Below are positions 7,710-60,197 of a DNA stretch of 64,000 nt, one piece after another. This DNA comes from Robiginitomaculum sp. (lineage in GTDB: Bacteria; Pseudomonadota; Alphaproteobacteria; Caulobacterales; Maricaulaceae), in assembly GCA_021776615.1 (NCBI GenBank), contig JAJFFO010000007.1, positions 62,001 to 126,000 on the forward strand. The letters run 5' to 3'. The position numbers and the translations under genes are program-made. The number at the start of each line of letters is the position of its first letter. Position 1 is the stretch's first letter. The notes beneath the pieces were generated by a model that saw nothing but the letters and a program-made list of their open reading frames with translations, ran no database searches and was not told the origin of the DNA.

Positions 7710-7833
7710 TCGTCTCGTCCCTTGCGCTAATATGCCGCATGGATTGCGCAAGCCGGAGCTTAGCGCAAGTTACTAAAAAGAAAGGTAAATTAAATTTTGG
7801 ACAGATTACAAAATGGTATATTTTGCAACATGC

Positions 7834-8367
7834 CTAATCTAAAGCATGCAGCCATGCCGCATGGCGCGGTGCTTTTTTGGTCTGCGACCATTCTTCCAAC
7901 ATGGCTGGCGCCACGGTGTGCAGCTCTGCCATTTGTTCCGGCGTGCGCGTGTTCGCGACCAGTTCAAGGCGATGGCCATTAGGGTCGAAAAAGTAGATGG
8001 ATTTAAAAATGCCATGATTGGTCGGGCCTAAAACGTCCAGCCCTTCGGCCTCGATCTTCTTCTTGGCTGCATGCAGCGCATCCAGGTTTTCCAATTCAAA
8101 AGCAATGTGTTGCACCCATTCGGGGGTGTTTTCATCACGGCCCATATCTTCCTTGGTCGGCAATTCAAAGAAAGCCAAAACATTACCCATGCCGGCATCC
8201 AAAAACACGTGCATATAGGGGTCTGGTGCCTTGGTAGAAGGCACTTCGTCCTCGGCAATGGCCAGCACAAAATCCATGCCCAACACCCGCTGGTAAAACT
8301 CAACGGTTTCCTTGGCGTCCTTGCACCGATAAGCGACGTGGTGAATGCGTTTTAGCGCGATACTCAT
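7834..8367 (-). CDS. VOC-superfamily (glyoxalase/dioxygenase fold) protein
   Basis: 177 residues. It starts at the second of two adjacent ATGs because GGAG lies six bases upstream of it. The fold shows two beta-alpha-beta-beta-beta modules with probable metal ligands: His in RIHHVAY, His in VQHIAFE and Glu in HRLELVA. This matches single-domain VOC enzymes such as extradiol dioxygenase-like or glyoxalase-like proteins. It begins 18 bases after the hppD stop on the same strand, so the two are probably one operon and this protein may act on an aromatic breakdown product. The exact reaction is not readable. Confidence 0.82.
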   Translation of the reverse strand: MSIALKRIHHVAYRCKDAKETVEFYQRVLGMDFVLAIAEDEVPSTKAPDPYMHVFLDAGMGNVLAFFELPTKEDMGRDENTPEWVQHIAFELENLDALHAAKKKIEAEGLDVLGPTNHGIFKSIYFFDPNGHRLELVANTRTPEQMAELHTVAPAMLEEWSQTKKAPRHAAWLHALD

Positions 8368-8385
8368 CATGCTCTCCAGCAAAAA

Positions 8386-9450: not shown

Positions 9451-9566
9451 AATGGTGCTCCATCTTGCGCGCAACCCTGTCGGTGCGCCATTGTTAGGGG
9501 GTTGCACCTAGAATGAACAAAACTAGTAACAAATGCAACTAAATTTTACGCCATAAGGTGAAACAC

Positions 9567-10205
9567 ATGAAGCTGTTCAATTATTACCGCAGTGGTACCT
9601 CCCACCGGATCCGCATCGCCCTGCACCTAAAAGACGTAAAATACGAATATGTGCCGGTAAATTTGCTGACCAGAGAACACAAGTCTGAAGAGTATTTGGC
9701 GATAAACCCGCAAGGCCTCGCCCCCAGCTTAAGCGTGGATGGACACATCCTCACCCAATCCCCGGCCATCTTGGAATGGATTGAGGAGACCTGGCTTAAC
9801 CCGCCGCTGCTTCCCGTAGCGCCCCTCGATCGCGCGCGGGTGCGGGCCATGGCCGCCTTAATTGCCTGCGACATTCATCCGTTGAACAATTTACGGGTGT
9901 TGAATGCCATTAAGGGTGAATTTGACGCTGACCCCAAAGCCGTGTCGCGTTGGATTGCTCAATGGATCACGGCAGGCTTTGAAGCTTTGGAGAAAATGCT
10001 GGATGGCACCCCCAAGCGCGGCGGTTTTTGCTTTGGGAATGCGCCGGGCTTGGCTGAATGCTGCCTGATCCCACAGGTGTATTCCGCTAAACGCTTTGGC
10101 GTCGATCTGACCCCATTCCCGGCGATTATCGCCATTGACCAAACCTGCACCGCCCTGCCCGCTTTTATCGCCGCCCACCCGGATAACCAGCCAGATGCGG
10201 TCTAG
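9567..10205 (+). CDS. maiA: Maleylacetoacetate isomerase (zeta-class GST)
   Basis: 212 residues from the ATG at 9567 with AAGGTG at six bases; a GTG at 9558 is the alternative. The N-terminal thioredoxin-like domain carries RSGTSHRIRIAL where the zeta-class motif is usually SSC-type; here Thr stands at the Cys position, while the neighbouring Ser residues are kept. INPQGLAPSL and the TQSPAILEWIEE glutathione-binding segment are typical. The C-terminal all-alpha domain is complete. Divergent from hppD, so it probably acts in the same tyrosine pathway, isomerising maleylacetoacetate to fumarylacetoacetate with glutathione. Confidence 0.9.
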   Translation: MKLFNYYRSGTSHRIRIALHLKDVKYEYVPVNLLTREHKSEEYLAINPQGLAPSLSVDGHILTQSPAILEWIEETWLNPPLLPVAPLDRARVRAMAALIACDIHPLNNLRVLNAIKGEFDADPKAVSRWIAQWITAGFEALEKMLDGTPKRGGFCFGNAPGLAECCLIPQVYSAKRFGVDLTPFPAIIAIDQTCTALPAFIAAHPDNQPDAV

Positions 10206-12110: not shown

Positions 12111-12217
12111 ATGCCTGCCCCCAATCATAACACTTAGGTGAAATGACGATTAAGAGCAATGATAAGGATTTGCAAAAGGGGTGGCGACCATGCCGCCAAA
12201 CGGCCAAGCGCGGCAGT

Positions 12218-13756
12218 TTACCGGGTGACTTCGCGATCGCCCAACAGGCATGGTCCGGTTTTGAGCATAATCAAAATATCCAGCCAAAAATTGGCGCGCC
12301 GGATATATTCAACGTCGAGCCGCACCCGCGTCCGCACATCCTCGGCATTTTCCAAGGGGCCGCGCGAGCCATTAATTTGCGCCCAGCCGGTAAGTCCCGG
12401 CTTCACCCTGTGGCGATGGGCATAATGGGCCACCAGTTTCCAGCTTTCCACCTCGCCAGTGCGCATACCCACCGCATGGGGACGTGGCCCAACCAGCGAC
12501 ATGCTGCCCGCCAGCACATTGAATAATTGCGGTAATTCATCGAGGCTGGTGCGGCGCAAAAACCCGCCCAATCGGGTGACGCGGCTATCGTTTTGCTGCA
12601 CCTGCTGAATGGCACCATTCTCTTGATGCACGCGCATGGAGCGAAATTTGAGCACTTCGATCACTTCATTGTTAAAGCCATGGCGCTTTTGGCGAAACAA
12701 AACCGGCCCGGGACTATCCAGACGAATAAGCAGCGCCACCAGCGCCATTACCGGTGCAAACACCACCAACATACCGGCCGCGAACACCACATCCTGCACC
12801 CGTTTTGCCACGGCGCGGGTTTGGTCGCGCGGCGCACCTGAAACCGAAACGACTGGGGCGCTGGCAATCTCGCTAAGGTGCGCCTGTTCCGGGTGAAAGC
12901 CGTCCACATCCATAAACAACACCACTTCTTGCGGCAAAGCGCGCAATTGATCGATCAACTCATTGACCCGGCGCGAAGCCGTCGACGTTACCGTGATAAT
13001 GATCTGGTCAATGGTATGCAGATCCGACCACGCCAATAAATCATTTACCCCGCCAGCAACGCAAACCCCTTCTATGTCGCCGGGGCGGCGCGAGGCACGG
13101 TCATCGAATACCGCTACAACATTTAACTCCGCACATGAGGCACTTTCGCCAATAAGGCGGCGGGCATTTTCCGTTGCTCCAACAATCACAACATTGCTGG
13201 CCAGTGCGCCTTTGCGCGACCAGCGGCTAACGACAGCGCCATATAGCAATTGCAGACCGGCCAAACCCAGACCCGCCAAAGCGCTGGTCCACAATAAAAA
13301 ATATAGAGCGTCGGCAGGGGTGTCCAAGGCCCACGCAACCAACAAGGTTGTGGCCAAGGCAAAAACCACGGCACCAACGGTCTTGCCCCATCGCAAAAGC
13401 AGCTTTTCCCCATAGGCGAAACGGTACGCGCCCATGGCCGCTAGGCTCCACACTGCCAAAAACGGCATAAGCAGGAATGGCGCGGCAATGCCAAATGCGG
13501 TTTGCGGCAGCGGCAAACCGCTGGCGAACCAGCAGCCATACAGAGCAGCAAAAGCCACCAGGGCCGCATCCAAAGTCTGAAAGCCGCGGATCGCCAATAC
13601 CTTATACACCCGCGAGGACCGATGACGCGGCACTTGCAAGCTTGGCGGCGAAAACGACGGCGCATCGGCAATTTTTGCTGATGGCGCATAGGCGGCGCGC
13701 TTGCTTGCGGTGGTGCCACCATTGGCAATTTGACTATTATTCTGGCTCGCCCGCAT
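12218..13756 (-). CDS. Polyprenyl-phosphate sugar phosphotransferase (WcaJ-like)
   Basis: 512 residues. An N-terminal disordered stretch is followed by four membrane helices (about 55-165), a CoA_binding_3/Rossmann-like domain (about 185-290: [21 protein letters not shown]) and a C-terminal bacterial sugar transferase domain. Signature pieces of the last are [39 protein letters not shown] and [13 protein letters not shown]. Such enzymes transfer a sugar-1-phosphate to undecaprenyl phosphate, the first step in exopolysaccharide or capsule repeat synthesis. No Wzx/Wzy or glycosyltransferases are adjacent, so the gene appears isolated except for the two flanking sulfotransferases. Confidence 0.93.
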
Positions 13757-47359: not shown

Positions 47360-48574
47360 ATGTCAAAATACCCCGAACAGGCCGCCAATCAAGGCGGCCG
47401 GCCACTCGTAAGGATCACCGCCATTCTCGATGCGTCTAGCGGCGCGGTCCAATCAATACTGCAACAGGACGCCTCCTTCAGCGTCGACCTGCACACGGCC
47501 AGCCAATGCGCCACCTTGCCATTGCAGGCAGGGCAACCGCCTGACCTTATTCTGCTGGAACCACCTTCATCGGATCAAGACCGGCTAATGGCCTGGCTGC
47601 GCACCTTGCGTATGACGGCCCCGGACGTGCCGGTACTGGTCATTGGTGAGCGGCTGTCGGTCAATGCCGTTCAGGCCCTGATGGCGTTACCGGCCAGCAA
47701 TGTTGTACCATTGCCGTTCAGCCAAAATGATCTGCTGGGCCTGATCAGCACAGTTATGCGCCGCCACACCAATACCGGCCCAACCAGTGCACAATGCTTG
47801 AGTTTCATGTCCGCCGTTGGCGGCGCCGGGGCGACCACTTTGGCTATAGAAACCGCCTATCAATTGCAAAGCATGAGCCCCGCCGCAAAGCGTGTGGCGC
47901 TGATCGATTTGAACTTTATTGATGGCGCGTGCGCCTCTTATCTCGACGTTCCTGCGAATTTGCGACTTGAGGAAGTCGCTGCCGATCCGGAGCGTATTGA
48001 TGAGGCGCTGATTGATGCTTTCGCGTCGCCGCATGGTTCGGGAATCGACGTGTTGGCGGCTGCACGCAGCCCTTTCGGATACCGGTGCATAAACGCACAA
48101 AGCATTGCCCGCCTGCTCGACGTTTCCTGTTCCATCTACGACCATGTGGTCATTGATATTTCACGCTGGATGCAAGACTGGACTCTGGATGTTTTGGCGG
48201 GATCCGACGCCGCCATTATTGTCTCCGAGCTTACCGTACCTGCTTTGCATGGTGCCCGCGATTTGGCCCTGAACATTGAAACCGAGAACCCCAACACTGT
48301 GGGCAATTTACATCTGGTGCTCAACCGCATGTCCAAACGGGTTTTTGGGCATTCCATTTCCTTGCCAGAGGCACAAAAGGCATTGGGCAGAAATGCTATT
48401 GGCTCTATCACCTCTGATTGGGATGGCGCGGTCGGCGCGGTCAATTATGGCACCGCCGTTGGACAGGCCAATCCAAAAAGCCGAATTTCCAAAGACATAC
48501 GAACGCTCATTCACACCCTGGAAGCAAAGGCTGACGACCATACCACTATGGAACACCTGCAGGTAGCACCATGA
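47360..48574 (+). CDS. cpaE: CpaE/TadZ-like pilus-localisation ATPase
   Basis: 404 residues. An N-terminal receiver-like domain (about 20-130, atypical) and a ParA/MinD-like domain. The Walker A is deviant: FMSAVGGAGATTLAIE, lacking both Lys residues of the ParA signature. VALIDLNFIDGACASYLDVP and HVVIDISRWMQDWTLDVL stand for the Asp motifs. CpaE/TadZ proteins position the pilus machine at the pole or cell side. It overlaps cpaF by ATGA. Confidence 0.9.
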   Translation: MSKYPEQAANQGGRPLVRITAILDASSGAVQSILQQDASFSVDLHTASQCATLPLQAGQPPDLILLEPPSSDQDRLMAWLRTLRMTAPDVPVLVIGERLSVNAVQALMALPASNVVPLPFSQNDLLGLISTVMRRHTNTGPTSAQCLSFMSAVGGAGATTLAIETAYQLQSMSPAAKRVALIDLNFIDGACASYLDVPANLRLEEVAADPERIDEALIDAFASPHGSGIDVLAAARSPFGYRCINAQSIARLLDVSCSIYDHVVIDISRWMQDWTLDVLAGSDAAIIVSELTVPALHGARDLALNIETENPNTVGNLHLVLNRMSKRVFGHSISLPEAQKALGRNAIGSITSDWDGAVGAVNYGTAVGQANPKSRISKDIRTLIHTLEAKADDHTTMEHLQVAP

Positions 48575-50031
48575 TTGGCCGATTTTCAACGCAGCATAAG
48601 GCAGGCACCGTTAAAGCGGCACCGCCTGCCCCATCTGAGGGGGCGGCAAAACCGCAAGCCCCTGCGACACAACAGGCGGCACCGGCCAAAGTATTACCAG
48701 AACCAGGCCGCCGCGATAAAAAACCTGGCAAAAAACCACGTGCCAAAAATGACCTGCTCAGCGCAAAATTGCGTATCCATAGCAAGCTTATTGATGAAAT
48801 AGACCTTAGCGATCTCGATCAGCTTGATGACGCCAGCTTACGTCGGCAGGTTCATGCACTGGTTGCCGAAATTGTGCGCGAGGAAAGGCTGGCCATGAAT
48901 GCCAGCGAAGTCGTCAGTTTTGCCAATGCGGTTTTCGATGAAATGACCGGCTTGGGCCCGATCGAGCCGCTTTTACAAGATGAAAGCATTTGCGATATTT
49001 TGATCAACGGGCCAAATCAGGTTTATGTTGAGCGCGGCGGGGAGTTAGAATTGGCCCCGGTTACCTTTGCCGATGACGACCATTTATTACGCATTATCAA
49101 TCGCATTGTTTCGCAAGTGGGGCGGCGGGTAGATGAATCCCACCCCATGGTCGATGCCCGCCTGCCAGATGGCTCGCGCTTCAATGCGGCCATTGCTCCC
49201 ATTGCCGTCGACGGACCACTGGTTTCGATCCGTAAATTCTCCACCAAACCGCTGACCATTGAAAGACTGGTTAGCTTTGGGGCGATGCCGGCCTGTGTTG
49301 CCGAATTTTTACATGCGGCCGTGCACGCGCGCGCCACAACCGTCATCTCCGGCGGTACCGGCTCTGGCAAAACCACTTTGCTGAATGCACTTTCCGCGGC
49401 GATCAGCCATAAGGAACGCCTGATCACCATTGAAGACGCGGCGGAATTGCAATTGCAACAACCGCATGTGGCCCGCATGGAAACCCGACCGCCAAATGTG
49501 GAAGGCAAAGGCGAAATTCGCCAGCGTGAATGCGTTAAAAACGCCCTGCGTATGCGCCCGGACCGGGTCATTCTTGGCGAGGTCCGCGGCGAAGAGGCAT
49601 TTGACATGCTGCAAGCCATGAATACCGGACACGAAGGCTCGATGGCCACCATCCACGCCAACACCCCGCGCGATGCCATTACCAGGCTAGAGCAAATGGT
49701 AGCCATGGGCGGCCTCAACGTTACCGAAGAAGCCGTGCGCGGGCAGATTGCCTCGGCCATTGGCTTGATTGTACAGGCGTCACGCCTTGCCGACGGGCAA
49801 CGCAAAGTGGTTTCCGTTGCCGAAGTGACGGGCATGGAAGGCAATGTCATTCAAATGCAGGAAATATTCTACTTTGACCGCACGGGAACCGGGCCAAACG
49901 GGGAGGTTTTGGGCGAACACCGCGCCAGTGGCCTGCGCCCCAAATGCCTGGACGACATTCTTACTTTGGGTACACACTATAACACCGCCTGGTTTGACCC
50001 AACGCGCGATCTGAACCGGGAGCAGCCATAA
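48571..50031 (+). CDS. cpaF: Flp pilus assembly ATPase CpaF
   Basis: 486 residues. An N-terminal Pro/Ala/Lys-rich tail (1-60) precedes the type II/IV secretion ATPase: Walker A GGTGSGKTTLLNAL, Asp box and Walker B MRPDRVILGEVRGEEAFDML, His box NTGHEGSMATIHANTPRDA. It powers pilus extension (and, in some systems, retraction). Shares TAATG with tadB downstream. Confidence 0.96.
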   Translation: MIGRFSTQHKAGTVKAAPPAPSEGAAKPQAPATQQAAPAKVLPEPGRRDKKPGKKPRAKNDLLSAKLRIHSKLIDEIDLSDLDQLDDASLRRQVHALVAEIVREERLAMNASEVVSFANAVFDEMTGLGPIEPLLQDESICDILINGPNQVYVERGGELELAPVTFADDDHLLRIINRIVSQVGRRVDESHPMVDARLPDGSRFNAAIAPIAVDGPLVSIRKFSTKPLTIERLVSFGAMPACVAEFLHAAVHARATTVISGGTGSGKTTLLNALSAAISHKERLITIEDAAELQLQQPHVARMETRPPNVEGKGEIRQRECVKNALRMRPDRVILGEVRGEEAFDMLQAMNTGHEGSMATIHANTPRDAITRLEQMVAMGGLNVTEEAVRGQIASAIGLIVQASRLADGQRKVVSVAEVTGMEGNVIQMQEIFYFDRTGTGPNGEVLGEHRASGLRPKCLDDILTLGTHYNTAWFDPTRDLNREQP

Positions 50032-50981
50032 TGCTCAATGATCTTGTCTATGTCCTGATATTCGGGTCCGGGTTTTTGGCGGTGCAGGCGCTGTTTGGCT
50101 TTGTGCGCAGCGCCCGGTCCGGACGGGTTATCAATCAACGGTTGCGGGTTGAAGCCAAGGTTGGCTCCGGCGGCGAGGCGTTAAGAATTATGCGCAAATC
50201 ACGCGCCCTTGATGAGGGCGGCGACTTTGCCCTTGCCGTGCATTGGTTCAACCAATTGGTTACCCGCTCTGGCCTGCCCTTTCGCCCGGCAGAATGGACC
50301 ATTGGCGCTTTGCTATTGGTTGTATTCGGCGCATTTGGCGCTTTTCTCATTACCCATAATCTCATCATTAGCGCCATAGTCGGTTTGTTTACCGGCTTGG
50401 CCTTGCCGCTATTATATTTACGCCGTACTGCGGCCAAACGCTCCAAACGACTGGGTTCGCAATTGGCCGATTCTCTGGAAATCATTGTGCGCTCGCTTTC
50501 CGCCGGGCACCCGGTGCCAAGCGCGGTCGCCTTGGTAGGCAAGGAAATGGCCGACCCCATTGGCTCCGAGTTCGGCATTATGAGCTATGAAATTTCCTAT
50601 GGTTCGTCGCTGTCACAAGCGGTTGGCAAGCTGGCCGAGCGCGTTGCCAATCCCGATGTTGATTTGTTCGCCGCCACTGTACGCCTGCAGGAACGCACTG
50701 GCGGCAATCTGGCCGAATTATTATCGGTCATCGCCGGCACTGTGCGCGAACGTCTGAAAATGCGCTTAAAAATTAATGCTGCATCCTCGGAGGGGCGCGC
50801 CTCGGCCCTTATTCTTACCTCTGCACCGTTTATTGTCGCCGGTGTTTTACAAGTCATGTCGCCGGATTTTTATGGCGATGTCATCCATGAGCGTGCCATC
50901 CATATTGGCTTGGCGTGCCTGCTTTTCTGGATGGTGATGGGCAATTTGGTGATGCGCAAAATGATCAATTTCAAGGTGTAA
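50031..50981 (+). CDS. tadB: Flp pilus membrane platform protein TadB
   Basis: 316 residues: N-terminal membrane helix, cytoplasmic region, GspF-type domain (LADSLEIIVRSLSAGHPVPSA), and C-terminal membrane segments. An inner-membrane platform protein for CpaF together with TadC. Starts within the cpaF stop (TAATG). Confidence 0.95.
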   Translation: MLNDLVYVLIFGSGFLAVQALFGFVRSARSGRVINQRLRVEAKVGSGGEALRIMRKSRALDEGGDFALAVHWFNQLVTRSGLPFRPAEWTIGALLLVVFGAFGAFLITHNLIISAIVGLFTGLALPLLYLRRTAAKRSKRLGSQLADSLEIIVRSLSAGHPVPSAVALVGKEMADPIGSEFGIMSYEISYGSSLSQAVGKLAERVANPDVDLFAATVRLQERTGGNLAELLSVIAGTVRERLKMRLKINAASSEGRASALILTSAPFIVAGVLQVMSPDFYGDVIHERAIHIGLACLLFWMVMGNLVMRKMINFKV

Positions 50982-51925
50982 TGATGAATGCTTTTTTAAC
51001 AGACCCCTTTGGCATTATCTTGATTGTTGGCGGCGCGCTTTTGGGGCCATTACTGCTGCTTGGTGTTAACACGTTAAGTGAAAAACGCACGCGACTGGCC
51101 GCGCGGCTTTCCGGCGCCGCGGTGGAACCTAAAAGCGGCAAACCATCGCCAAAACGGTTTTCCTGGGTGCAGGGACTTGGCCAAATGGTCTCGCCCAAAG
51201 GCGAAAAGGCCAGCTCGGCGATTAAAATGCGCCTTATGCATGCAGGCTTTATCGCCAAAAGCGCCCCCTATTGGTTTTATGGTGCGCGATTGCTGTTGCT
51301 GGTCGGGTCCATTGCTTTGCTGGCCGTACTTTGGCCAATCATTGGCGATAGTTTGCCAGTGTCCGGCCCCCTGCCCGTCGCCATCACAGTCGCCATTGTC
51401 GCGCACATTGCCCCCGGGTTTTGGCTAGATCGTCGCCAGGCCAATGTGCAGCAGGAATACCGCAATGGCTTTCCTGACATGATGGATTTGCTGGTTGCCT
51501 GTGTGCAGGCCGGATTGAGTCTGGATGCTGGCATTAATCGTGTGGCCGAGGAAATCGGCCGACGCTATCCCAATCTGAATGTGCATCTTGGCATTATGAG
51601 TTTGGAGTTGCGGGCCGGTCGTTCCCGCATTGAAGCGCTTTCCGGCTTTGCCGAACGCTTGGGCATGGACGAGGCAAGGGCATTTGCCACCATGTTGCGG
51701 CAATCCGAAGAAATGGGCACCAGCCTCAGCACCACCTTGCGTGTGTTTGCTGATGATATGCGCGAAAAGCGTATGCTTTACGCCGAGGAAAAAGCCCTGT
51801 CTTTGCCCGCCAAATTGGTGGTGCCACTGATCTTGTTTATTTTTCCGTCTTTATTGGGCGTGCTGATGTTGCCCGCCGGGGTTCGGTTATATTGGGTGTT
51901 TTCGGGAACCGGCGTACCGGGTTAA
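50981..51925 (+). CDS. tadC: Flp pilus membrane platform protein TadC
   Basis: 314 residues (ATG 50981 or 50984; AAGGTG fits the second better). GspF-like domain GFPDMMDLLVACVQAGLSLD and LRQSEEMGTSLSTTLRVFAD, with four membrane segments. Completes the CpaB-C-E-F-TadB-C core. Its stop overlaps that of the convergent SDR gene by four bases (TTAA), and no tadD, tadE-G or prepilin peptidase gene follows. Confidence 0.95.
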   Translation: MMNAFLTDPFGIILIVGGALLGPLLLLGVNTLSEKRTRLAARLSGAAVEPKSGKPSPKRFSWVQGLGQMVSPKGEKASSAIKMRLMHAGFIAKSAPYWFYGARLLLLVGSIALLAVLWPIIGDSLPVSGPLPVAITVAIVAHIAPGFWLDRRQANVQQEYRNGFPDMMDLLVACVQAGLSLDAGINRVAEEIGRRYPNLNVHLGIMSLELRAGRSRIEALSGFAERLGMDEARAFATMLRQSEEMGTSLSTTLRVFADDMREKRMLYAEEKALSLPAKLVVPLILFIFPSLLGVLMLPAGVRLYWVFSGTGVPG

Positions 51926-52791
51926 GTTTTTTTGTTCAGGGCGTTGTTAATCAGGCGGTCGGCCAGACGTTTGGGCATAAGCGTTGACGACAAAATACGC
52001 GACATCAGTGCGCCTTTACTAACCTCATAAGCGGTGCGTTTTTTCCGACCTTCAATAATGTCCAATACCAATTGCGCAATGACTTCGGCGGGCAGCGCCC
52101 CGGCCTCGGCACCGCGCATAATTTTTTGGGCGTTATTGGCCAAATTCTCATAAATTGTGCCATCATATTTGGTGTCGCGCGCGGCATTCTTTTTCCAGAT
52201 TTGCGACTGAATCGGACCGGAGCGAATGGCGACGACATCGATACCGGTGCCCATAAGTTCGCGGCGGTATATCTCGCCAAGGCTTTCCATCGCATGTTTG
52301 GAAACGCAATAGGCTCCGTTCATCGGCGTATTTATTATGCCCGATAAGGAAGAGATATTGATAATCTTTCGTGCGGCCACGCCATCGAAAGCCGGGGAAC
52401 GCATTAGCGGCAAAAAAGCGTTGGTAACATTACGCGCGCCCAACACATTTACCTGCATAATGTGCTCAAATGCATCGTCGTCCAAACTTTCCATCGGCCC
52501 AAACAGCGCTAAACCGGCATTATTGACCAACGCCCCAATGTAGCCATCGCCAATTTTCTGGTGTACTTCAGCGGCTCCGGCCCGCACTGCCGCTTTATCG
52601 CAAACATCGAAAACCAGAGGGACGAATAAATCGCCCAAAGCCGCGGTTAATTTGTCGGCATCTGCGGCTTTGCGCACGCTGCCGAATACCCGATAGCCGC
52701 GATTTGCCAAAAATGACGCCAAGGCAAAGCCAATACCGCTGGATACGCCAGTGACCACAACATTCGCTACTGGTGGCATGGATGCACTCAT
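51922..52791 (-). CDS. SDR-family oxidoreductase at the operon end
   Basis: 289 residues from the ATG at 52791 with AAGGA at seven bases. TGVSSGIG cofactor loop, NNAG, catalytic Ser in INISSLSG and YCVSK. Gene order puts it last in the six-gene minus-strand run headed by the CRTAC1 protein. C-terminal region is basic (RRELMGTGIDVVAI ... KGALMSRILSS), typical for SDRs associated with membranes or lipids. Substrate unknown; it could oxidise or reduce the molybdoenzyme's product. Confidence 0.9.
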   Translation of the reverse strand: MSASMPPVANVVVTGVSSGIGFALASFLANRGYRVFGSVRKAADADKLTAALGDLFVPLVFDVCDKAAVRAGAAEVHQKIGDGYIGALVNNAGLALFGPMESLDDDAFEHIMQVNVLGARNVTNAFLPLMRSPAFDGVAARKIINISSLSGIINTPMNGAYCVSKHAMESLGEIYRRELMGTGIDVVAIRSGPIQSQIWKKNAARDTKYDGTIYENLANNAQKIMRGAEAGALPAEVIAQLVLDIIEGRKKRTAYEVSKGALMSRILSSTLMPKRLADRLINNALNKKT

Positions 52792-52843
52792 GGCATTTCC
52801 TTCAAAAAAACTGGTGTGGCGCGTCCGGCATTGGCGACAATCA

Positions 52844-53596
52844 TCACAACACCCGGTCAAACAGGCCAATAAAAGAGCTGTCGGTCTTCGCCGCGATTGC
52901 CATATAACTATCCGAGCGCAAGGCGTCGGCTAATCGCTCGGCATCATCGCTTTTCAGCACCACAATATTGTCCATAAGGCAGGGGTTTTGTTCGCCCATA
53001 TCGGCTTTGTCGCCCAAATAGACATGCGCGCCAGTTTTGCCAGCATAAAACAACTCAATCATATGCGCGACAGCAAACTTTTTGATCTGCTCTATAATGC
53101 CCGTTTCGCCCCTATAATGGTGCACCGCATAGGCGGCTTGCTGTTGGGGGGGCGACAGATCAGGCCCGTCATCCAGCCTTTGGGTGAAACCAAAAGTAAA
53201 ATCACGCACGGCGAAGATACGAAACACGCTGACCATCTGGAAAAATTTACTTTGCAGCATTGTTTTGAAATCATCCAGCGACGGGTAGCGGACGATCAGG
53301 ATTACCTGGCGTTGATCGGCCGCCGTGCCGGATAATGTTTCGCGCCATAACCCTTTAAAAAATGGGGCACCATCAATCGCCTTCACCGAGCGGATCGCCA
53401 GAATATTATAAAAATCATAGACCCATTGGGTTTTGGTATCGAACCAATTCACCGCATAGACCGGGTTTTCGAACGACAAATCATCGCCGGTTTTGGCGAT
53501 ATAGGCATAGTATTTGCCCATAAGATGGGCCTTGAGCACCGACGCTTTATCGTCCGTCCCGCTTTGCTCAGGGGTAATGGCTTTGTCAGTTTTCAT
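52844..53596 (-). CDS. Uncharacterised protein, possible tandem alpha/beta-barrel
   Basis: 250 residues, no signal peptide or membrane segments. I see two similar halves in composition: the first (about 30-150) reads like a dimeric alpha/beta-barrel (DUF1330/EthD-type) with ILAIRSVKAIDGAPFFKG and VILIVRYPSLDDFKTMLQSK; the second (about 170-250) ends DSYMAIAAKTDSSFIGLFDRVL. This kind of fold often binds aromatic or heme-like ligands. It lies 14 bases after the diflavin-fusion stop, in the same operon, so it may chaperone or process its substrate. No specific function can be given. Confidence 0.7.
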   Translation of the reverse strand: MKTDKAITPEQSGTDDKASVLKAHLMGKYYAYIAKTGDDLSFENPVYAVNWFDTKTQWVYDFYNILAIRSVKAIDGAPFFKGLWRETLSGTAADQRQVILIVRYPSLDDFKTMLQSKFFQMVSVFRIFAVRDFTFGFTQRLDDGPDLSPPQQQAAYAVHHYRGETGIIEQIKKFAVAHMIELFYAGKTGAHVYLGDKADMGEQNPCLMDNIVVLKSDDAERLADALRSDSYMAIAAKTDSSFIGLFDRVL

Positions 53597-53610
53597 ATCC
53601 ACTCACCGCC

Positions 53611-56600
53611 CTAATAAACATCGCGCAAATAGCGTTTTTGCTGTTTAAGCGCTGCCGTATACTCTCTTGCCGCACTGGTGCTTAACTTGCCGTGCTTTTC
53701 GATAATGTCATGCAACGCACGGTCAACATCCTTGGCCATATTCTTCTCATCGCCACAGACAAAAATGTGCGCGCCGCGCTCCAGCCAGGCAAATAGCTCT
53801 GCCCCTTCTTCGCGCATACGATCCTGCACATAAATCTTGCGTTTCTGGTCGCGCGAAAATGCCAAATCCAGCCTTGTTAACGCCCCGCTCGACAGATGCG
53901 CCTTAAACTCGTCTTCGTAGAGAAAATCCGTCTTTGCATTACGGTCACCAAAAAACAGCCAGCTATCGCCCTTATTTGAGCGAAACTTAAATTCTTCCAA
54001 AAAGGCGCGAAACGGCGCAATACCGGTGCCTGGGCCAATCATGATGATGGGGCAATCGCCATCATCGGGCAGAGTGAAGGCTTTATTGGCGACAAAATAA
54101 CACGGCACCACATCACCAATTTCCAGCATATCTGCCAAATACACGGACCCAACACCATGGTGCTGGCGTCCATCATCCTCATAACGCACCGAGGCCACGG
54201 TCAAATGCGCTTCGTCCTTATGCACGTTAGGGCTGGAGGAGATCGAGTATGAGCGCGGCATTAGCGGTCGTAATAGCGCAAGCAAACTTGGGATGTCCGG
54301 TGCCAATGCGGGGCATAGATTTAGCAGAGCCAGCACGTCTTTTCGCGCCAGCGCCGGTCTGATCACATCAGCGTCGCCCAAGCCGAGATTGCGGCGTAAT
54401 TCTGCGTCATCACCGATCTTGATAGTTTTGTCGATAAGCGCCGAAGACGGTGTGCGTATCTCAAATTCTTCAGTAAGCCTTTGCCGCAAAGACGCGTGGT
54501 TATCAGCCCCCATAAACGCCAACAAATCGTCAACCAATTGCGCCCGGTTTTTCGTCAGGACATTGACGATATCGCCAATTTTATAGTGCTGGCTAAGGCC
54601 GGGATGGGAGATTGCGTAATGGTAGGTCAGCTTGCTGGAACCCGGCTTGGTCAACACTTGCCTGGCGGTAAGTTTGGCGCGCATGGGGTTGGTGCGGCTG
54701 TATTTGGACGCGGTCGTCTCTGCGCGCGGATCAATGGTGATCATCGTGCTCTGATCGCCCTTTAGCCCAATAATCGGCAAAACATCTTCCAGCCATTGGG
54801 CGGCAGCGTCGGTATAATCCACATCGCAATCAACGCGATCCACAACCCGCTCGGCACCCATTTTCTCCAATTGCCGGTCCCAATCGCGCCCGGCCTGACA
54901 AAAGGTCTCATAACTGCGATCGCCCAGTGCCAGCACCGCGTAAAAACCATTGGCCAATGCCGGTGCCGACGGCGCGGTGATCGCATCCCACAACCCCTGA
55001 GCGTTGTCCGGCATATCGCCCTCGCCATAGGTACTGCAAATCACCAAAACCCGCTCAAGCGCGGCCAGCGCATCTATGTCCAGATCATCCATGGCCACCG
55101 CATTGCCAAGCATGCCATGCTGGCGCGCTTGTTTGACCGCGTCCTGGGCGAGAAATTCTGCATTGCCGGTCCGGGTGCCGTAAATAATGGTTAGGGGCTT
55201 GCCGGTAATTTTTTCATCCTTGGCGCGGGCTTTAAGCGCCTTGATGCTCACCATTGTGCCGGAAAACGCCGCATTACCGGTGAGCGGGTCAACCCGCAAA
55301 TGGTCGGTAATATCGTTGACACTGACCCCCGGTTTTGCCTCGGCAATTGGCAGGCGAGTCCCCGGCCGGGTATGGCCAAAACCATGGGGGATAGAGACCG
55401 CGCCGGGCATCATGGTGTCGGTAATCTCAGCGGGAAGCACAATCTTCCCGGTGCGAGAACTTACCGCAACATCATCGCCATCACCGATCAGCAGCCGATC
55501 CGCATCGTCAGGGTTAATCATCACGGTGCAGCGCACCAATTTGCTGCGACTAAGCTTTTCGAACTGGTGCATCCACGAATTATTGGTGTTTACATTGCGG
55601 CGGCCAATAAGCGTAAACTCATCGACATTCGGCTTGATCGCCTTGGCGAGGTCGGCAAATTCCTTTTCTCGAACCTCTTGCAACCGAGCCAAAAATACCG
55701 GCGGTGCCATGTGGATTTTTTTTTCCGGGGTAATCAACCCCGTCGGAACGCGCGGGCGCAAGGGCCCAAGATTAATACCGTGTCCGGATTTTAAAACCTT
55801 GCGCAAGGACAGGCCGGAAAGCCAGCGCTTGGGATGGCTTAGCCGCCCATAAGCGCCGAGCATAAGCCCCCAATTAACCAGCCGGCGCGGTGTGGCCAGC
55901 CGGTCAAACAGGCTAAGGCCCTTTGCCGACAGGCGGCGCGTGAGTTCCTTCAAAACCTGCCAGTCATAGGGTCTCCCAGCGCTCACAGGGAAAAGCGCTT
56001 CTGAAAATTTGGCATTATTGGTCACCGATATGGTATTGAAAATAAGATCATAATGATCCACTTCCAACCCGGTCGGCGTTGGCAAAATAATGTCGGCATG
56101 GCGGGTGGTTTCGTTGATATAATTGTCAATCGAGACCATAAAATCCAGCTTTTCCAGAGCTGGCTCAAGCCGGTTGCCGCTTGGCGACGATAATACCGGA
56201 TTACCGCAAATGGTCATAAAGGCGCGCACCTGACCTTCGCCCTTGGTTAGCATCTCGTCAGCCATGCCCGACACCGGCAATTCGCCATAAAACTCCGCCA
56301 GCCCCCGCGCCCGGCTGTGCCAGCGTTTTGCCGCATTCGGTTGGGTTTTGGCGCGCACCAATTCAATAGCCGGTTCAGGGAACATCATGCCCCCCGGTGT
56401 ATCAAAATTACCCGAAACAATGTTGATACAATTGATCAGCCAATGGCAAAGGCCACCATGCATTTGGGTGGACAGGCCCATTCGCCCATAAAGTACCGCG
56501 CGGTCCTGCGCCAGAAACTCTTTCGCGAGGCGTTCAAGAGTCTGCGCCTCCATCCCGATTACCAGCGCGACAGCCTTCGGCGTAAACATATCAACAAGCG

Positions 56601-57411
56601 GCTCCAGGGATTCAAAGCCAGTGATATGGGTGCCAAGCCGCCCCAGCTTGACCCGCTTATCTCTAAAAATAATATGCAAAAAAGCCAGTAGGAAGAAAAC
56701 GTCAGTGCCGGGTTTTATGAAGCAGTGCTCGGAGGCAATTTTCGCGGTCTCGGTTTTGCGCGGATCGACAACTACAAATTTGCCGCCGCGCTTTTTAATT
56801 TCTTGCAGACGCTCAGTAATCCCCGCCGAAGTCATAATACTGCCATTACTGGCCAGCGGGTTCGCCCCCATAAGGATCATATAATCCGTGCGATCAACAT
56901 CGGGCACCGGAATGCGAAACTCGTGACCGAACATATAATGGGCAGCAAAATGATGCGGCAATTGGTCCATGGAGGTGGCCGAAAAAATATTGCGCGAGCC
57001 AATCGCCCCGGTCAGGGTTTTGACGAATAATAACATGCCAAGATTGTGCACAATCGGATTGCCAAGATAGCTGGCAATGGCATTTTGCCCATAGCGCTCA
57101 CGGACCGACTTCAGGCCACGCTCTACGGCTTCATAAGCCTCATCCCATGAAATTTCAGCCCAACCATTGGCGGTTTTCTTTACCGGATGCCGCAACCGGC
57201 TTGGGTCGAAGTGCAGCGGCCCAAGCACCGGTGCCTTGGGACACATACTGCCTTTGCTGAACGGGTCTTTGGCGTCTGGCCTGACCTGAATTTTTTTAGC
57301 TTCGGTCGCGGCATCAGGATCATGAATGATCTCCACGCCGCACATGGCTTCGCAAAAATTACAAACCCGGAAGTGCGATGTTGGTTTTGCCAACTCAGAG
57401 TCCGAAACCAT
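53611..57411 (-). CDS. Molybdopterin oxidoreductase fused to a CysJ-like diflavin reductase
   Basis: 1266 residues on one chain. Residues about 1-725 form a complete molybdopterin oxidoreductase of the DMSO-reductase superfamily: [4Fe-4S] Cys17, Cys20, Cys24, Cys57, then CPKAP; GDD-rich C-terminal dinucleotide domain (VMINPDDADRLLIGDGDDVA, SIPHGFGHTRPG). Residues about 738-885 are an FMN flavodoxin (IIYGTRTGNAEFLAQ, CSTYGEGDMPDNAQ), about 906-1110 the FAD domain (RSYSISSSP at 1053), then an NAD(P)H domain (GPGTGIAPFRAF at 1126, CGDEKNMA at 1219) ending in YLRDVY like CysJ. Electrons should pass NAD(P)H-FAD-FMN-[4Fe-4S]-Mo. Where Cys would ligate Mo in nitrate reductases, this protein has SMDQLPHH (Asp149 is the likely ligand; inferred). 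Annotated fusions of this kind exist (bifunctional nitrate reductase/sulfite reductase), but substrate here is unknown. No Tat signal, so cytoplasmic. Confidence 0.9.
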   Translation of the reverse strand: MVSDSELAKPTSHFRVCNFCEAMCGVEIIHDPDAATEAKKIQVRPDAKDPFSKGSMCPKAPVLGPLHFDPSRLRHPVKKTANGWAEISWDEAYEAVERGLKSVRERYGQNAIASYLGNPIVHNLGMLLFVKTLTGAIGSRNIFSATSMDQLPHHFAAHYMFGHEFRIPVPDVDRTDYMILMGANPLASNGSIMTSAGITERLQEIKKRGGKFVVVDPRKTETAKIASEHCFIKPGTDVFFLLAFLHIIFRDKRVKLGRLGTHITGFESLEPLVDMFTPKAVALVIGMEAQTLERLAKEFLAQDRAVLYGRMGLSTQMHGGLCHWLINCINIVSGNFDTPGGMMFPEPAIELVRAKTQPNAAKRWHSRARGLAEFYGELPVSGMADEMLTKGEGQVRAFMTICGNPVLSSPSGNRLEPALEKLDFMVSIDNYINETTRHADIILPTPTGLEVDHYDLIFNTISVTNNAKFSEALFPVSAGRPYDWQVLKELTRRLSAKGLSLFDRLATPRRLVNWGLMLGAYGRLSHPKRWLSGLSLRKVLKSGHGINLGPLRPRVPTGLITPEKKIHMAPPVFLARLQEVREKEFADLAKAIKPNVDEFTLIGRRNVNTNNSWMHQFEKLSRSKLVRCTVMINPDDADRLLIGDGDDVAVSSRTGKIVLPAEITDTMMPGAVSIPHGFGHTRPGTRLPIAEAKPGVSVNDITDHLRVDPLTGNAAFSGTMVSIKALKARAKDEKITGKPLTIIYGTRTGNAEFLAQDAVKQARQHGMLGNAVAMDDLDIDALAALERVLVICSTYGEGDMPDNAQGLWDAITAPSAPALANGFYAVLALGDRSYETFCQAGRDWDRQLEKMGAERVVDRVDCDVDYTDAAAQWLEDVLPIIGLKGDQSTMITIDPRAETTASKYSRTNPMRAKLTARQVLTKPGSSKLTYHYAISHPGLSQHYKIGDIVNVLTKNRAQLVDDLLAFMGADNHASLRQRLTEEFEIRTPSSALIDKTIKIGDDAELRRNLGLGDADVIRPALARKDVLALLNLCPALAPDIPSLLALLRPLMPRSYSISSSPNVHKDEAHLTVASVRYEDDGRQHHGVGSVYLADMLEIGDVVPCYFVANKAFTLPDDGDCPIIMIGPGTGIAPFRAFLEEFKFRSNKGDSWLFFGDRNAKTDFLYEDEFKAHLSSGALTRLDLAFSRDQKRKIYVQDRMREEGAELFAWLERGAHIFVCGDEKNMAKDVDRALHDIIEKHGKLSTSAAREYTAALKQQKRYLRDVY

Positions 57412-57807
57412 TCAGGCGGCCGCGCGCTTTAGCCCTTTGGCATAGCCCAAAAACAACACCAAGCACAAAACCGCCATCGCCAGCGAAATAAAGCATTGCG
57501 GAATACCCGCCGGACCGGGCGGACAAATATGCCCTTGCGTTAATTCCAAAGCCACACCAATACTGGCCAGCGCCGTTACCGGCGCCCATCCAACATAAAA
57601 GATCAGCGCCTTGCGCCGTGTAGGCAGCAATGCAGACAGCAACATAAGCACATAGCCAATGAAAACCACCAGACACGCTGGCACCGGCCCCACCATTGGG
57701 CAGATATCACCGTGGGACAAATGGTCTGCCGACAACATGCCACCAGCAAAGACACCAAACCCGGCGATCAAAATAAGGCCGATACGACTTAAGGAAGATA
57801 AGAACAT
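57412..57807 (-). CDS. Small membrane protein with a duplicated Cys motif
   Basis: 131 residues from the ATG at 57807, four membrane helices. The two halves repeat a motif: GDICPMVGPVPAC (Cys36, Cys45) and GHICPPGPAGIPQC (Cys95, Cys105), each at the end of an extracytoplasmic-like loop. The TGA stop is directly followed by the ATG of the molybdo-diflavin gene (TGAATG), so translation is coupled. I do not recognise the family. Duplicated Cys pairs in a membrane protein may bind a metal or form disulfides; a quinone or electron carrier role is speculation. Confidence 0.8.
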   Translation of the reverse strand: MFLSSLSRIGLILIAGFGVFAGGMLSADHLSHGDICPMVGPVPACLVVFIGYVLMLLSALLPTRRKALIFYVGWAPVTALASIGVALELTQGHICPPGPAGIPQCFISLAMAVLCLVLFLGYAKGLKRAAA

Positions 57808-57811
57808 AATG

Positions 57812-58483
57812 TTAGCTCGCTTTGGCGTTGGACTGCCGCCCAAACAAAAGCGACAGTGCGAAAATGATCCCGTGGGTGGCGTTCATCGCCACGGGGAAGA
57901 CATAAAGGCCAATGGTGGTCTTGAAAAAATACAAAGCGAACATGATGGCCAAGAGCACGATGGGGCTGAACACCGCCATCCATTTAGGAAAGAACGTGCC
58001 GCCCTTCATAATCAGGTAAATCCAGATGATCGACACCAACACCATGGCAAGCCGCAATACATTGACAAAAGGCTCATTGTGCTCGGAAAAAATCGTCAGA
58101 AGGCTTTTGATATCCGTCCCCCGCGCGATCTCATGCACGGTGCTGGCAATAAAAAAGCGCTGACTGATCCACGCCGTACCGACGGTAAAAGCGTAAGCGC
58201 CAATCAAAAAGAAGAAGAAAGACAGCGTCTTGCCTGACGGTTCCAGCCGTTTGGAAAGGTGCCAATAGCCCAACAGATAAAGCGGCGCAGAAAGGACGGC
58301 CAGGAAATGTCCAAAGGTCAGCCGCTCTGGCGAAACATCATTAAAATACAGATAGTCCTTTACGTCCTCAATGCCGCCATTAAGCGTGAATTGTAAATTG
58401 AACTCGCCAACACCGACCAGAATCGCACCTAAAAGCCCGGCCAAGCCGGCAAGAGTCACTGCTTTGGAATTGTACTGCGCCAT
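57812..58483 (-). CDS. Membrane protein, DUF6796-like
   Basis: 223 residues with six predicted membrane helices. It begins MAQYNSKAVTLAGLAGLLGA and includes LTFGHFLAVLSAPLYLLGYW and GTAWISQRFFIASTVHEIAR. Such proteins are in a group called DUF6796 (from memory). AAGGTG lies six bases before the ATG at 58483, within the CRTAC1 gene's stop region. Its stop is four bases before the start of the next gene, so the two small membrane proteins are probably made together. Confidence 0.7.
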   Translation of the reverse strand: MAQYNSKAVTLAGLAGLLGAILVGVGEFNLQFTLNGGIEDVKDYLYFNDVSPERLTFGHFLAVLSAPLYLLGYWHLSKRLEPSGKTLSFFFFLIGAYAFTVGTAWISQRFFIASTVHEIARGTDIKSLLTIFSEHNEPFVNVLRLAMVLVSIIWIYLIMKGGTFFPKWMAVFSPIVLLAIMFALYFFKTTIGLYVFPVAMNATHGIIFALSLLFGRQSNAKAS

Positions 58484-58488
58484 ATCGC

Positions 58489-60114
58489 TCACCTTATTGC
58501 TGAAACATTCAGAACACTGTTCGTGTCAGGTTCGTCTATTATTTCGGTAACGCCATTTTGAAAGCGAATGGTTACCCGCTTCACGCCATCAGCATTGCCA
58601 AGCCCGAAGATAAGGTCACGGCCCTGATCAGAGCCCAATCCCTGCGACGTCATTAATTGCTTATATTGCACTTCGCCCAGACTATTGGTGACGCTGACGC
58701 TGGCATTCAAAGATTGTGCGGTATTGGGCAAGCGAACTTTAATCCATTTTCGCGGCCCGCCTTGATTAAGATAGGCTAATGCCTTGCCATCAAGATTGGC
58801 CCAAACAAGGTCCGGCCAGCCATCCTGATTAAAGTCGGAAACCACCGGGGCAATGCCAAACAGGCGGTTTTCCGCCCCTGCCCGCTTTTCAACCGGCTGA
58901 AACTTATCGCCATAGTTTTGTAAAATTTTCCCCGGATAATGGTCGAGCAACGCATTGCCGGGGAAACGTGCATAATTTTGCGCCGCCAGTAGGTCTTCAC
59001 GGCCATCCAAATTCATATCGGCAAAAACCGTGCCCCAGCCAAAACCATAGCGAGCGGCATTCATTTCCTCTGCGGTATCGGAAAACCGCAAAAAGCCCTC
59101 ATTATGAAACAGCATGTAAGCCGGGTTGAAAACATCTTCTTTTTCCAAATCGCCGCGCAAGATTGCCGGTGGCAGGGTGAAGCCTACATTGGAGAAATAC
59201 AAATCCACCAGACCATCATTATCATAATCGCCAACGGCAACCCCCATGGGGTAGGAAAACACGGATGGGTTCGGAATTGGCGAGAAAGTCAAATCGCCAT
59301 TGTTTTCATACATTTCGACCCTGCCGGTATCTTGTGCAATCACCAGATCGCTATCGGCATCATTGTCCAAATCGGCAAACACCGCAGTAAAGGTGTTGTG
59401 TTGCCGCCAAATGCCGGCAGATTTGGAAATATCTTTCCACGCGCCGCCGCCTTCATTCAAAAACAGATAGCTGTAACCGCCATAGCCATCGGCAAAAATC
59501 GTTTCGCCCTCAACATGGCTGATTTTGATATAGCCGGACACATACATGTCCGCGAGGCCGTCTTTATTAATGTCGCCAAAGGCCAAGGATAATGGCGTGG
59601 TATTATCGGCAAGCATTAACGGCAATTTCACACTGCCAAACACGCCGCCCAGATTTTCATGAAACCAAACGCCGCTTTCGCGGGCAACAAAAAGATCGGT
59701 ATCGCCATCATTGTCCACATCTATGCTGGCAGCACCATGAGAGGCATCAATTGCGTCTTTTTCAAAAACATTATCGGTGGCCACAAATTTACCGTCAGCA
59801 AAACGAAATAAGCGATCCGCCTGGCGAGAACCACCGCCCAAAAACAATTCGTCCACATGGTCGCCATCGGCGTCGAACGCGGCACTTGCCAGAAACGGCA
59901 AGGCGTTTTCAAGATCGGCCTCATGAGTAAAGGGCAGGTCCGTCGCCGTGAACGCCAAATCTGTCTCGCCCTGAGGAGCTTTTTCGGCCTGCCAAAAACG
60001 CAAACCGGCAAAGGCACTGAACAATAAAAACAACACCACACCGACGGAAATCATCCCGGTACAGCCAATGGCTATCAACCAGCCTTTGCTCAAACTCTTT
60101 TTCTGCCCCGACAT
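58489..60114 (-). CDS. CRTAC1-family FG-GAP/ASPIC-UnbV protein
   Basis: 541 residues. An uncleaved N-terminal membrane anchor (about 11-36) is followed by seven calcium-type blade motifs (DADGDHVDELFLG, DVDNDGDTDLFVA, DINKDGLADMYVS, DLDNDADSDLVIA, DYDNDGLVDLYFS, DMNLDGREDLLAA, DFNQDGWPDLVWA), a beta-propeller exposed to the periplasm. A C-terminal ASPIC/UnbV domain ends the protein. Head gene of the six-gene operon, with GGAG six bases before the ATG. CRTAC1 proteins are thought to bind extracellular ligands; a catalytic role is unproven. Confidence 0.92.
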   Translation of the reverse strand: MSGQKKSLSKGWLIAIGCTGMISVGVVLFLLFSAFAGLRFWQAEKAPQGETDLAFTATDLPFTHEADLENALPFLASAAFDADGDHVDELFLGGGSRQADRLFRFADGKFVATDNVFEKDAIDASHGAASIDVDNDGDTDLFVARESGVWFHENLGGVFGSVKLPLMLADNTTPLSLAFGDINKDGLADMYVSGYIKISHVEGETIFADGYGGYSYLFLNEGGGAWKDISKSAGIWRQHNTFTAVFADLDNDADSDLVIAQDTGRVEMYENNGDLTFSPIPNPSVFSYPMGVAVGDYDNDGLVDLYFSNVGFTLPPAILRGDLEKEDVFNPAYMLFHNEGFLRFSDTAEEMNAARYGFGWGTVFADMNLDGREDLLAAQNYARFPGNALLDHYPGKILQNYGDKFQPVEKRAGAENRLFGIAPVVSDFNQDGWPDLVWANLDGKALAYLNQGGPRKWIKVRLPNTAQSLNASVSVTNSLGEVQYKQLMTSQGLGSDQGRDLIFGLGNADGVKRVTIRFQNGVTEIIDEPDTNSVLNVSAIR

Positions 60115-60197
60115 ATTCTTCTCCAAAATGTCATATCATTTGGCGCCCTATCGCCGATTGTACGGCCTAATGAGCACTTCTCGTCCCAAAACTCAAT

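Follow-up and report, generated by a model that had tools for sequence, protein, structure and literature searches.

A single-chain molybdenum/diflavin fusion protein and its recurring gene neighbours in Robiginitomaculum sp.

Introduction

NasN, the NADPH-dependent diflavin nitrate reductase of M. smegmatis (MSMEG_4206), whose relatives are annotated as 'bifunctional nitrate reductase/sulfite reductase flavoprotein subunit alpha', was reportedly first characterised by Tan et al. in 2020. YcbX is a MOSC-type molybdenum enzyme. Single-chain NADPH-diflavin-Mo enzymes are already known, since mycobacterial NasN is described as one in the accessible parts of two reports (PMC7816997; PMC11162112), and the one-chain electron path that the first-pass annotation described for the DNA analysed here is thus not new in principle. 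Furthermore, in the accessible part of a third report, the Mo enzyme YcbX is described as receiving its electrons from CysJ when it acts on N-hydroxylated bases (PMC3831636). Here, we analysed a six-gene locus around a molybdenum/diflavin fusion in a stretch of 64,000 nucleotides (the window; contig JAJFFO010000007.1, positions 62,001 to 126,000) from a Robiginitomaculum sp. genome that is 71% complete, and compared it with these systems.

Results

The six minus-strand open reading frames annotated as a head-to-tail operon were all found at the annotated coordinates (Table 1). With the longest frames, the gaps are -4 (propeller/DUF6796), -32 (DUF6796/Cys-motif), 0 (Cys-motif/fusion), 8 (fusion/barrel) and -26 bases (barrel/SDR). 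When the internal ATGs at 57807 (Cys-motif gene) and 52791 (SDR gene) are used as starts, the DUF6796/Cys-motif and barrel/SDR gaps become 4 and 52, and the spacings of 14 to -4 described earlier for most of the operon are a fair summary. The proposed TGAATG coupling was borne out, as the TGA of the Cys-motif gene directly abuts the ATG of the fusion gene. Base composition gave no sign of foreign origin, the GC content of the operon being 0.521 and that of the window 0.523, and mis-assembly of the fusion is unlikely, given six further full fusions found in genomes of Granulosicoccaceae and Woeseiaceae.

Table 1. Genes of the locus, with positions in the window and the evidence for each assignment.
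Feature	Position	Strand	Evidence
Classical SDR; longest frame from TTG 52869, ATG 52791	51922..52869	-	PF00106
Tandem ferredoxin-like (alpha/beta barrel) protein, 252 aa	52844..53602	-	PF07045, structure model, fold matches
Mo/diflavin fusion, 1266 aa	53611..57411	-	Pfam, NCBIfam, family alignment, trees
Cys-motif membrane protein, 143 aa, four helices	57412..57843	-	Alignment, structure model
DUF6796 membrane protein	57812..58492	-	PF20599, alignment of 8, hydrophobic segments
FG-GAP/UnbV-ASPIC (CRTAC1-type) beta-propeller; ATG start 60114	58489..60126	-	PF13517, PF01839, PF07593, alignment of 8

Pfam, NCBIfam and alignments agreed with the first reading of the central gene product as a Mo/diflavin fusion of 1266 residues, the chain being intact and all cofactor motifs present. 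Its domain order can be read directly from the sequence: a [4Fe-4S] site, a Mo-bisPGD part (residues ~1-735), a flavodoxin domain (742-866), an FAD domain (to 1091) and an NADPH domain (1124-1230). The DMSO reductase superfamily domains PF00384 (116.1 bits) and PF01568 (77.5 bits) as well as PF00258, PF00667 and PF00175 all exceeded their cut-offs, whereas the cluster domain PF04879 fell slightly below it (20.5 vs 22.7 bits). In the family alignment, C17, C20, C24 and C57 form a four-Cys cluster site that is aligned with the family and carries the motif CNFCEAMCG. In the alignment to solved Mo enzymes, D149 takes the place of the Cys/Sec that binds Mo in formate dehydrogenases and thiosulfate reductase. 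In the family alignment, this position holds Asp in 38 of 42 rows and Cys in the three NasN rows (the annotated homologues L078, L080 and L081, not MSMEG_4206 itself) and in one other Mo enzyme of the genome itself, and Asp149 is the predicted Mo ligand of the fusion. The best named NCBIfam match of the Mo half, formate dehydrogenase alpha subunit, was rejected (208.1 bits against a cut-off of 666.25), with Asp-Gln in place of Sec/Cys-His. From residue 739 to its last residue the fusion aligns with solved CysJ, reaching the C-terminal tyrosine; it scores 544.7 bits against the CysJ model TIGR01931 (cut-off 668.15), with the FMN, FAD and NADPH domains all present. No twin-arginine signal was seen on inspection by eye, and the fusion was therefore taken as cytosolic.

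To place both halves phylogenetically, a tree of the Mo half was built from the window and 41 of 47 matches, leaving out one L010 duplicate, four fragments and one distant enzyme of the genome itself, and a tree of the diflavin half from the window and 21 of 35 matches, leaving out 14 Bacillota copies. G514 and L010/G532, apparently one genome, were counted as one observation. A single branch sets the fused proteins apart, NasN lying elsewhere, with support of 100/100 for the Mo half and 100/99 for the diflavin half, and in the Mo tree the NasN group and the fused group are separate at 100/100 each. Judged from these trees, the fusion is of single origin and separate from NasN, and several separate fusion events are not needed, as each half gives one group in its tree. 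Within the clade, Granulosicoccus and Woeseia are paired in the Mo tree (97/92), and the window and Granulosicoccus, weakly, in the diflavin tree (84/83). The diflavin half is 36-43% identical to stand-alone Bacillota homologues. One member inside the fused clade, L010, has no diflavin half and its Mo frame ends at the linker, which we read as an apparent loss; the Mo half can thus exist alone.

Of the companions, the protein encoded next to the fusion is DUF1330-related in its first half (PF07045, 24.2 bits, cut-off 23) and the SDR matches PF00106 with 131.9 bits, so that Pfam upheld both the barrel-like and the SDR gene types. The barrel model (pLDDT 85.5) has, among the fold matches listed, those of sulfur oxygenase reductase, anthrone oxidase-like proteins and putative monooxygenases, and also of chlorite dismutase and coproheme decarboxylase. 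The barrel gene lies directly downstream of the fusion in all eight fused-clade loci. Near full-length copies occurred only with the fused clade, in 2 of 150 genomes of the order, where every other match had an E value no better than 2e-8 and covered at most ~75 of 248 positions; among 321 genomes of another class and 117 of another order, the protein was found only in the query genome (limit E 1e-15). Of all the neighbours, the barrel protein is the one most specific to the fusion. SDR copies with 53-69% identity are present in six of the seven other fused-clade genomes.

The remaining three genes encode putative envelope proteins. The CRTAC1-type propeller and the DUF6796-like protein were confirmed by FG-GAP/UnbV-ASPIC and PF20599 (65.1 bits) matches, respectively; the propeller has one N-terminal hydrophobic segment, and for DUF6796 no paper was found in the open-licence literature. 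The duplicated Cys motif reported for the third protein corresponds to two similar motifs, C48-P-x2-G-P-x-P-x-C57 and C107-P-x4-G-x-P-x-C117, located in loops between helices 1-2 and 3-4 of the model (pLDDT 84.7). The motif cysteines are invariant in eight aligned homologues, with a longer second motif in two. The protein resembles the VKOR fold only weakly (Foldseek E 0.033), no better than it does unrelated helix bundles, and PHROGs gave one match (E 0.071), to a family with no assigned function. Few genomes carry the Cys-motif protein (5 of 150 and 2 of 321), and the G460 match is a weak one that covers part of the protein (E 5.6e-9, positions 13-100 of 142). Thioredoxin-fold or rhodanese genes lie a few genes from the trio in L099, L116 and L117.

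The barrel, propeller, DUF6796 and Cys-motif families are present in all eight fused-clade genomes and the SDR in seven. The association is more than chance, as the same kinds of neighbour surround the fusion in three bacterial families other than that of the window (Granulosicoccaceae, Woeseiaceae and Parvularculaceae). The genes are arranged differently from carrier to carrier, which speaks against a single block transferred in fixed form, and the block is patchy, since two 99% complete genomes of the window's genus lack the fusion, the barrel and the Cys-motif protein. In two Granulosicoccus genomes the trio is on another contig than the fusion; G454, G485 and G460 have the trio with no fusion match at E<=1e-60, and G780 has the trio together with a non-fused relative only. 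The proposed linkage of the five neighbours to the fusion thus stands for the families, which recur in all carriers, but not for their order nor, in the two Granulosicoccus genomes, for the trio. Likewise, the free variation of neighbours that the first-pass annotation had named as contrary evidence was seen only in part, families being kept while their order changes and the trio can lie apart. Nor do the six genes make up a single inseparable unit, as the trio is detached from the fusion in two genomes and four further genomes carry it but not the fusion. The operon consists of two modules, a core of fusion, barrel and SDR and a trio of propeller, DUF6796 and Cys-motif proteins.

Discussion

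From these data we infer an electron path, a reaction direction, a substrate class and a role for each module. Electrons would pass from NADPH through FAD, FMN and the [4Fe-4S] cluster to a bis-pyranopterin Mo centre held by aspartate, which would reduce a small molecule other than nitrate, reduction being assumed because of the diflavin half. The substrate is most likely organic and oxygenated, such as an N- or S-oxide, an N-hydroxy or a hydroxylated compound. The barrel protein and the SDR would act on the same substrate line, and the propeller, DUF6796 and Cys-motif proteins would make up another unit, located in the envelope and separable from the core, possibly acting in thiol redox, which became attached to the core in the majority of carriers; the membrane proteins may deliver the substrate and the SDR may act on the product. 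We favour this reading of a soluble NADPH-to-Mo reductase with two companions on one line and a separable trio only tentatively, as nearly an even call. Several observations speak against it: L010 has the Mo half alone, the trio also occurs apart from the fusion, NirB exceeded its cut-off in two of eight carriers, and MobA did so in only three of eight, with sub-threshold matches in the other five; the best match of the window reached 59 of 152 bits, and equally weak matches occurred in 14 of 14 control genomes.

The separability of the trio bears on whether the locus is one system at all. The trio could have no connection to the Mo enzyme, the two units being neighbours through a shared transfer history, as the separate contigs in the two Granulosicoccus genomes, the four genomes with a trio and no fusion, and the absence of fusion, barrel and Cys-motif protein from the two near-complete genomes of the window's genus would suggest. 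However, all three trio families are found in every fused-clade genome, the unlinked two included, and the Cys-motif protein is otherwise rare, so that we consider this account rather unlikely.

Other alternatives concern the substrate. Ligand and tree, on sequence grounds, indicate that the fusion is not an ordinary assimilatory nitrate reductase (NasN/NarB), the annotation that had been named at first pass as speaking against a new pathway. Set aside as a first reading on ligand, trees and neighbours, it is retained as a rival, that of a divergent NasN-kind assimilatory enzyme that still acts on nitrate through an Asp-bound Mo. Asp is also the Mo ligand of NarG, and respiratory nitrate reductases are among the Asp-bound Mo enzymes; moreover, NasN and the fusion share their domain order, and NirB exceeded its cut-off in two of the eight fused-clade carriers. 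Against this, the Mo half is 23-25% identical to the three NasN rows vs 33-73% to 26 non-fused rows of its own clade, the fusion clade is separate from NasN in both trees, the ligand is Cys in all three NasN rows, and the NasN genes of L078, L080 and L081 lie at most two genes from nirB, while no nirB was seen by eye in the frames of seven fetched fusion loci. We regard a nitrate role as very improbable. Cytosolic detoxification of an inorganic oxyanion (chlorate, selenate, arsenate or the like), with the barrel in a chlorite-dismutase-like part, is quite improbable as well. The Asp ligand suits known oxyanion reductases, the fold matches of the barrel model to chlorite dismutase and coproheme decarboxylase would be consistent with it, and DMSO-reductase-family enzymes are found beside Cld genes according to the accessible part of one report (PMC9751292).

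The open-licence literature on diflavin Mo fusions, bacterial CRTAC1/UnbV proteins, uncharacterised Asp-ligated Mo enzymes, DUF6796, Mo/CysJ in Woeseia and catechol dehydroxylases, including the accessible parts of PMC7816997, PMC11162112, PMC3831636, PMC11574389 and PMC9751292, gave no description of this system. In its widest form, our proposal is a second, independent one-chain NADPH-to-Mo enzyme, Asp-bound, which together with a dedicated barrel/SDR pair and a VKOR/DsbB-like thiol-quinone/propeller unit would make up a redox pathway between cytosol and envelope; database and open-licence literature searches found no counterpart of such a pathway, and we consider it unlikely to hold in full. 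On the reading favoured above, a diflavin NADPH reductase would have been joined to a Mo enzyme on at least two occasions. Through one gene, the fusion would give access to a broad group of Asp-type molybdopterin oxidoreductases, and since it has its own NADPH reductase on the chain, its substrate could be screened directly by NADPH oxidation. The neighbours that recur across bacterial families point to an undescribed chemical pathway.

Among known proteins, the non-fused molybdopterin oxidoreductases of Aquimarina, Deinococcus, alphaproteobacteria and others share the Mo half and the Asp motif with the fusion, but lack the diflavin half and have, among the loci listed, mostly other neighbours, which vary between genomes and give no guide to the substrate. 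We know of no described function and no electron donor for these Asp-type relatives. The sulfite reductase flavoprotein CysJ shares the FMN-FAD-NADPH half, and the fusion differs from it by the attached Mo enzyme. In the E. coli CysJ-YcbX pathway, as described in the accessible part of its report, a CysJ flavoprotein likewise feeds a Mo enzyme (PMC3831636), but the two are separate chains. NasN resembles the fusion in being one chain with a [4Fe-4S]/Mo half followed by a CysJ-like diflavin half and NADPH as donor; unlike the fusion, with its predicted Asp ligand and CNFCEAMCG motif, it has a Cys ligand and the motif C-x-YCGVGCG, its gene neighbours differ, and both of its halves are, according to the trees, of separate origin.

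Gene block, domains and active site of the fusion protein

The first-pass annotation described six head-to-tail genes on the minus strand, and this arrangement was borne out (see the table). The 1266-residue fusion protein carries molybdopterin domains above Pfam cut-offs in its N-terminal half, flavodoxin, FAD and NAD-binding domains, each above its cut-off, in its C-terminal half, and a cluster domain scoring marginally below the cut-off. The top curated match of the diflavin half was CysJ (544.7 bits, below the cut-off of 668.15) and that of the Mo half was formate dehydrogenase (208.1 bits versus a cut-off of 666.25). Alignment with solved CysJ spans residue 739 to the last tyrosine and thus places the NADPH, FAD and FMN loops as in CysJ. 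No twin-arginine signal was seen in the fusion, so that on this sequence criterion the protein would be placed in the cytosol.

Residue D149 aligns with the Cys/Sec that binds Mo in formate dehydrogenases and thiosulfate reductase of solved structure. In the family alignment of 42 rows, this predicted ligand column holds Asp in 38 rows and Cys in three rows of NasN, the single-chain diflavin nitrate reductase, and in the L003 enzyme of the window genome. Asp is the Mo ligand in enzymes of the NarG type. The active site predicted from D149 is thus neither that of NasN/NarB nor that of formate dehydrogenase, which argues against both identities and against the ordinary assimilatory nitrate reductase that the first-pass annotation had named as its refuting case. 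NirB scored above the curated cut-off in two of the eight carriers (G531, G970) and in two of the 14 control genomes, with weaker matches in all carriers and all controls, and nirB lies within two genes of NasN in three annotated NasN loci; this pattern, with the window genome 71% complete, makes nitrate assimilation less probable. MobA exceeded its cut-off in three of the eight carriers, and the top match in the window genome reached 59 of 152 bits, with comparable matches in 14/14 controls, so that this score says little about cofactor synthesis there. The window genome also has two further Mo-enzyme-like genes (L002, L003), which share 26% identity with stretches of the fusion protein.

Positions of the gene block and of side observations at related loci
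Feature	Coordinates	Strand	Observation
Six-gene block	60114 (or 60126) to 51922	minus	tightly packed, head to tail
Genes converging on SDR	48571-51925	plus	resemble Tad pilus genes (read by eye); last gene shares four bases with SDR frame
L040	599-2233		glutamate-synthase-like protein (PF01645) beside Mo gene or its block
L008	15985-17700		as L040
L009	16126-17709		as L040
L097			stand-alone diflavin sister L067 after full-length glutamate synthase gene
L083 (G027)	4242-9461		two tandem non-fused Mo-family members, PpoB2 copper-chaperone-like gene in between
L076 (Deinococcus plasmid)	195-10076		xanthine dehydrogenase, guanine deaminase and NCS2 permease genes, then non-fused member; hints at purine-related chemistry in this lineage
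L011 (Aquimarina)	12207-12551	opposite to Mo gene	CHMI-family (PF02962) gene just after non-fused Mo gene; cluster found in four Aquimarina loci
L038 (Bacteroidetes MAG)	5042-7460		non-fused Mo gene with a short barrel-like frame directly ahead of it (33% identity over part of the barrel)
L115 (G454)	5275-9579		trio adjoins carotenoid-oxygenase gene (RPE65, PF03055)
L116 (G485)	4482-9307		trio after MbnB/TglH/ChrH-type RiPP enzyme, DUF2063 and DoxX genes; thioredoxin gene close by; identities by Pfam
L117 (G460)	4946-9432		as L116; identities by resemblance

Origin and gene neighbourhood of the fusion

Six further full fusions turned up in the genome collection, three from Granulosicoccaceae and three from Woeseiaceae (57-60% identical), alongside non-fused relatives headed by L010 of Parvularculaceae (72%), whose Mo frame ends at the linker and lacks the diflavin half. 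In the Mo-half tree (42 rows) the seven fusions and L010 form one group (100/100) in which the window pairs with L010 (100/96); NasN is distant with its own full support, and the longest end branches (L003, L069, L062, L046) all lie outside the group. The diflavin-half tree (22 rows) again unites the seven fusions (100/99); L067, a free-standing diflavin protein from the same order, adjoins them, and NasN lies apart. The inner order of the group is in weak conflict between the Mo and diflavin trees (97/92 versus 84/83). Read most plainly, these sequences would point to one fusion that arose separately from NasN, after which L010 lost its diflavin half.

Across the fused clade of eight genomes (the window genome and those of L004-L010), the gene for the barrel, a tandem ferredoxin-like protein, lies directly downstream in all loci. 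The SDR gene (53-69% identical) was found in seven genomes: in the window and L007-L010 it comes shortly after the barrel gene, and in L006 (about 6 kb) and L005 (about 8 kb) it lies upstream of the fusion; L004 was seen on its contig only, which ends just past the barrel gene. All eight genomes encode the envelope trio: the propeller and the Cys-motif protein lie near the fusion in six (propeller within about 7 kb) and on a separate contig in two Granulosicoccus genomes (L005, L006), while DUF6796 is on a separate contig in the genomes of L005, L006 and L010. Thus, of the linkage proposed earlier, the presence of the trio families and the barrel held in every carrier, but gene order and strand vary and the trio can be unlinked. 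The trio is upstream of the fusion in L004, the propeller and DUF6796 upstream and the Cys-motif gene downstream in Woeseiaceae, and the Cys-motif and propeller genes are divergent in L010. In L005, L006, L007 and L009 the next gene after the barrel encodes a small membrane protein; the L007 copy has a DUF454 match of 21.1 bits, below the 35.1 cut-off.

Among 150 genomes of the window's order, the barrel profile gave some match at E<=0.001 in 49, near whole-length only in the window genome (1.8e-115) and in G514 (1.0e-114), apparently the L010 genome; the other matches extended over no more than about 75 of 248 positions, with E values of 2e-8 or above. At E<=1e-15 it was confined to the query genome among both the 321 genomes of the class and the 117 of the order of the L007 genome. 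The Cys-motif protein occurred in 5/150 and 2/321 genomes, respectively, of the window's order and the L007 class. G454, G485 and G460 encode it together with the propeller and DUF6796, but a search with the fusion found nothing in them at E<=1e-60. In G780, which also carries the trio, a non-fused relative (41%) is encoded elsewhere in the genome. Two 99%-complete genomes of the window's genus gave no fusion, barrel or Cys-motif match at the limits used. This distribution in carriers and non-carriers separates a core of fusion, barrel and SDR from the envelope trio as two modules, and every core carrier examined has both. In G485 and G460, the genes around it hint that the trio may be part of bufferin-like operons for metal or thiol stress.

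Proposed mechanism and comparison with known systems

The predicted NADPH, FAD, FMN, [4Fe-4S] and Mo sites all lie on one chain, so no separate electron partner should be needed. CysJ-like diflavin reductases normally carry electrons from NADPH to an acceptor; the Mo site should therefore reduce, with NADPH electrons reaching it along the same chain. The most probable substrate class would be a small oxygenated organic compound. The SDR, which is well conserved, and the barrel protein specific to this clade would work on the substrate or the product, and the envelope trio would form a second redox unit that may feed, sense or export.

In the open-licence literature searched, neither an Asp-type Mo half joined to a diflavin half of separate origin nor the linked companion set was found described. 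The passages of PMC3831636 on the YcbX route, in which CysJ feeds a Mo enzyme that reduces N-hydroxylated bases, offer a precedent for a CysJ flavoprotein as donor to a Mo enzyme. Single-chain Mo/diflavin architecture is already known from NasN, according to the parts of PMC7816997 and PMC11162112 that treat it; the fusion shares this architecture and differs by its Asp-type Mo half and by a diflavin half of apparently separate origin.
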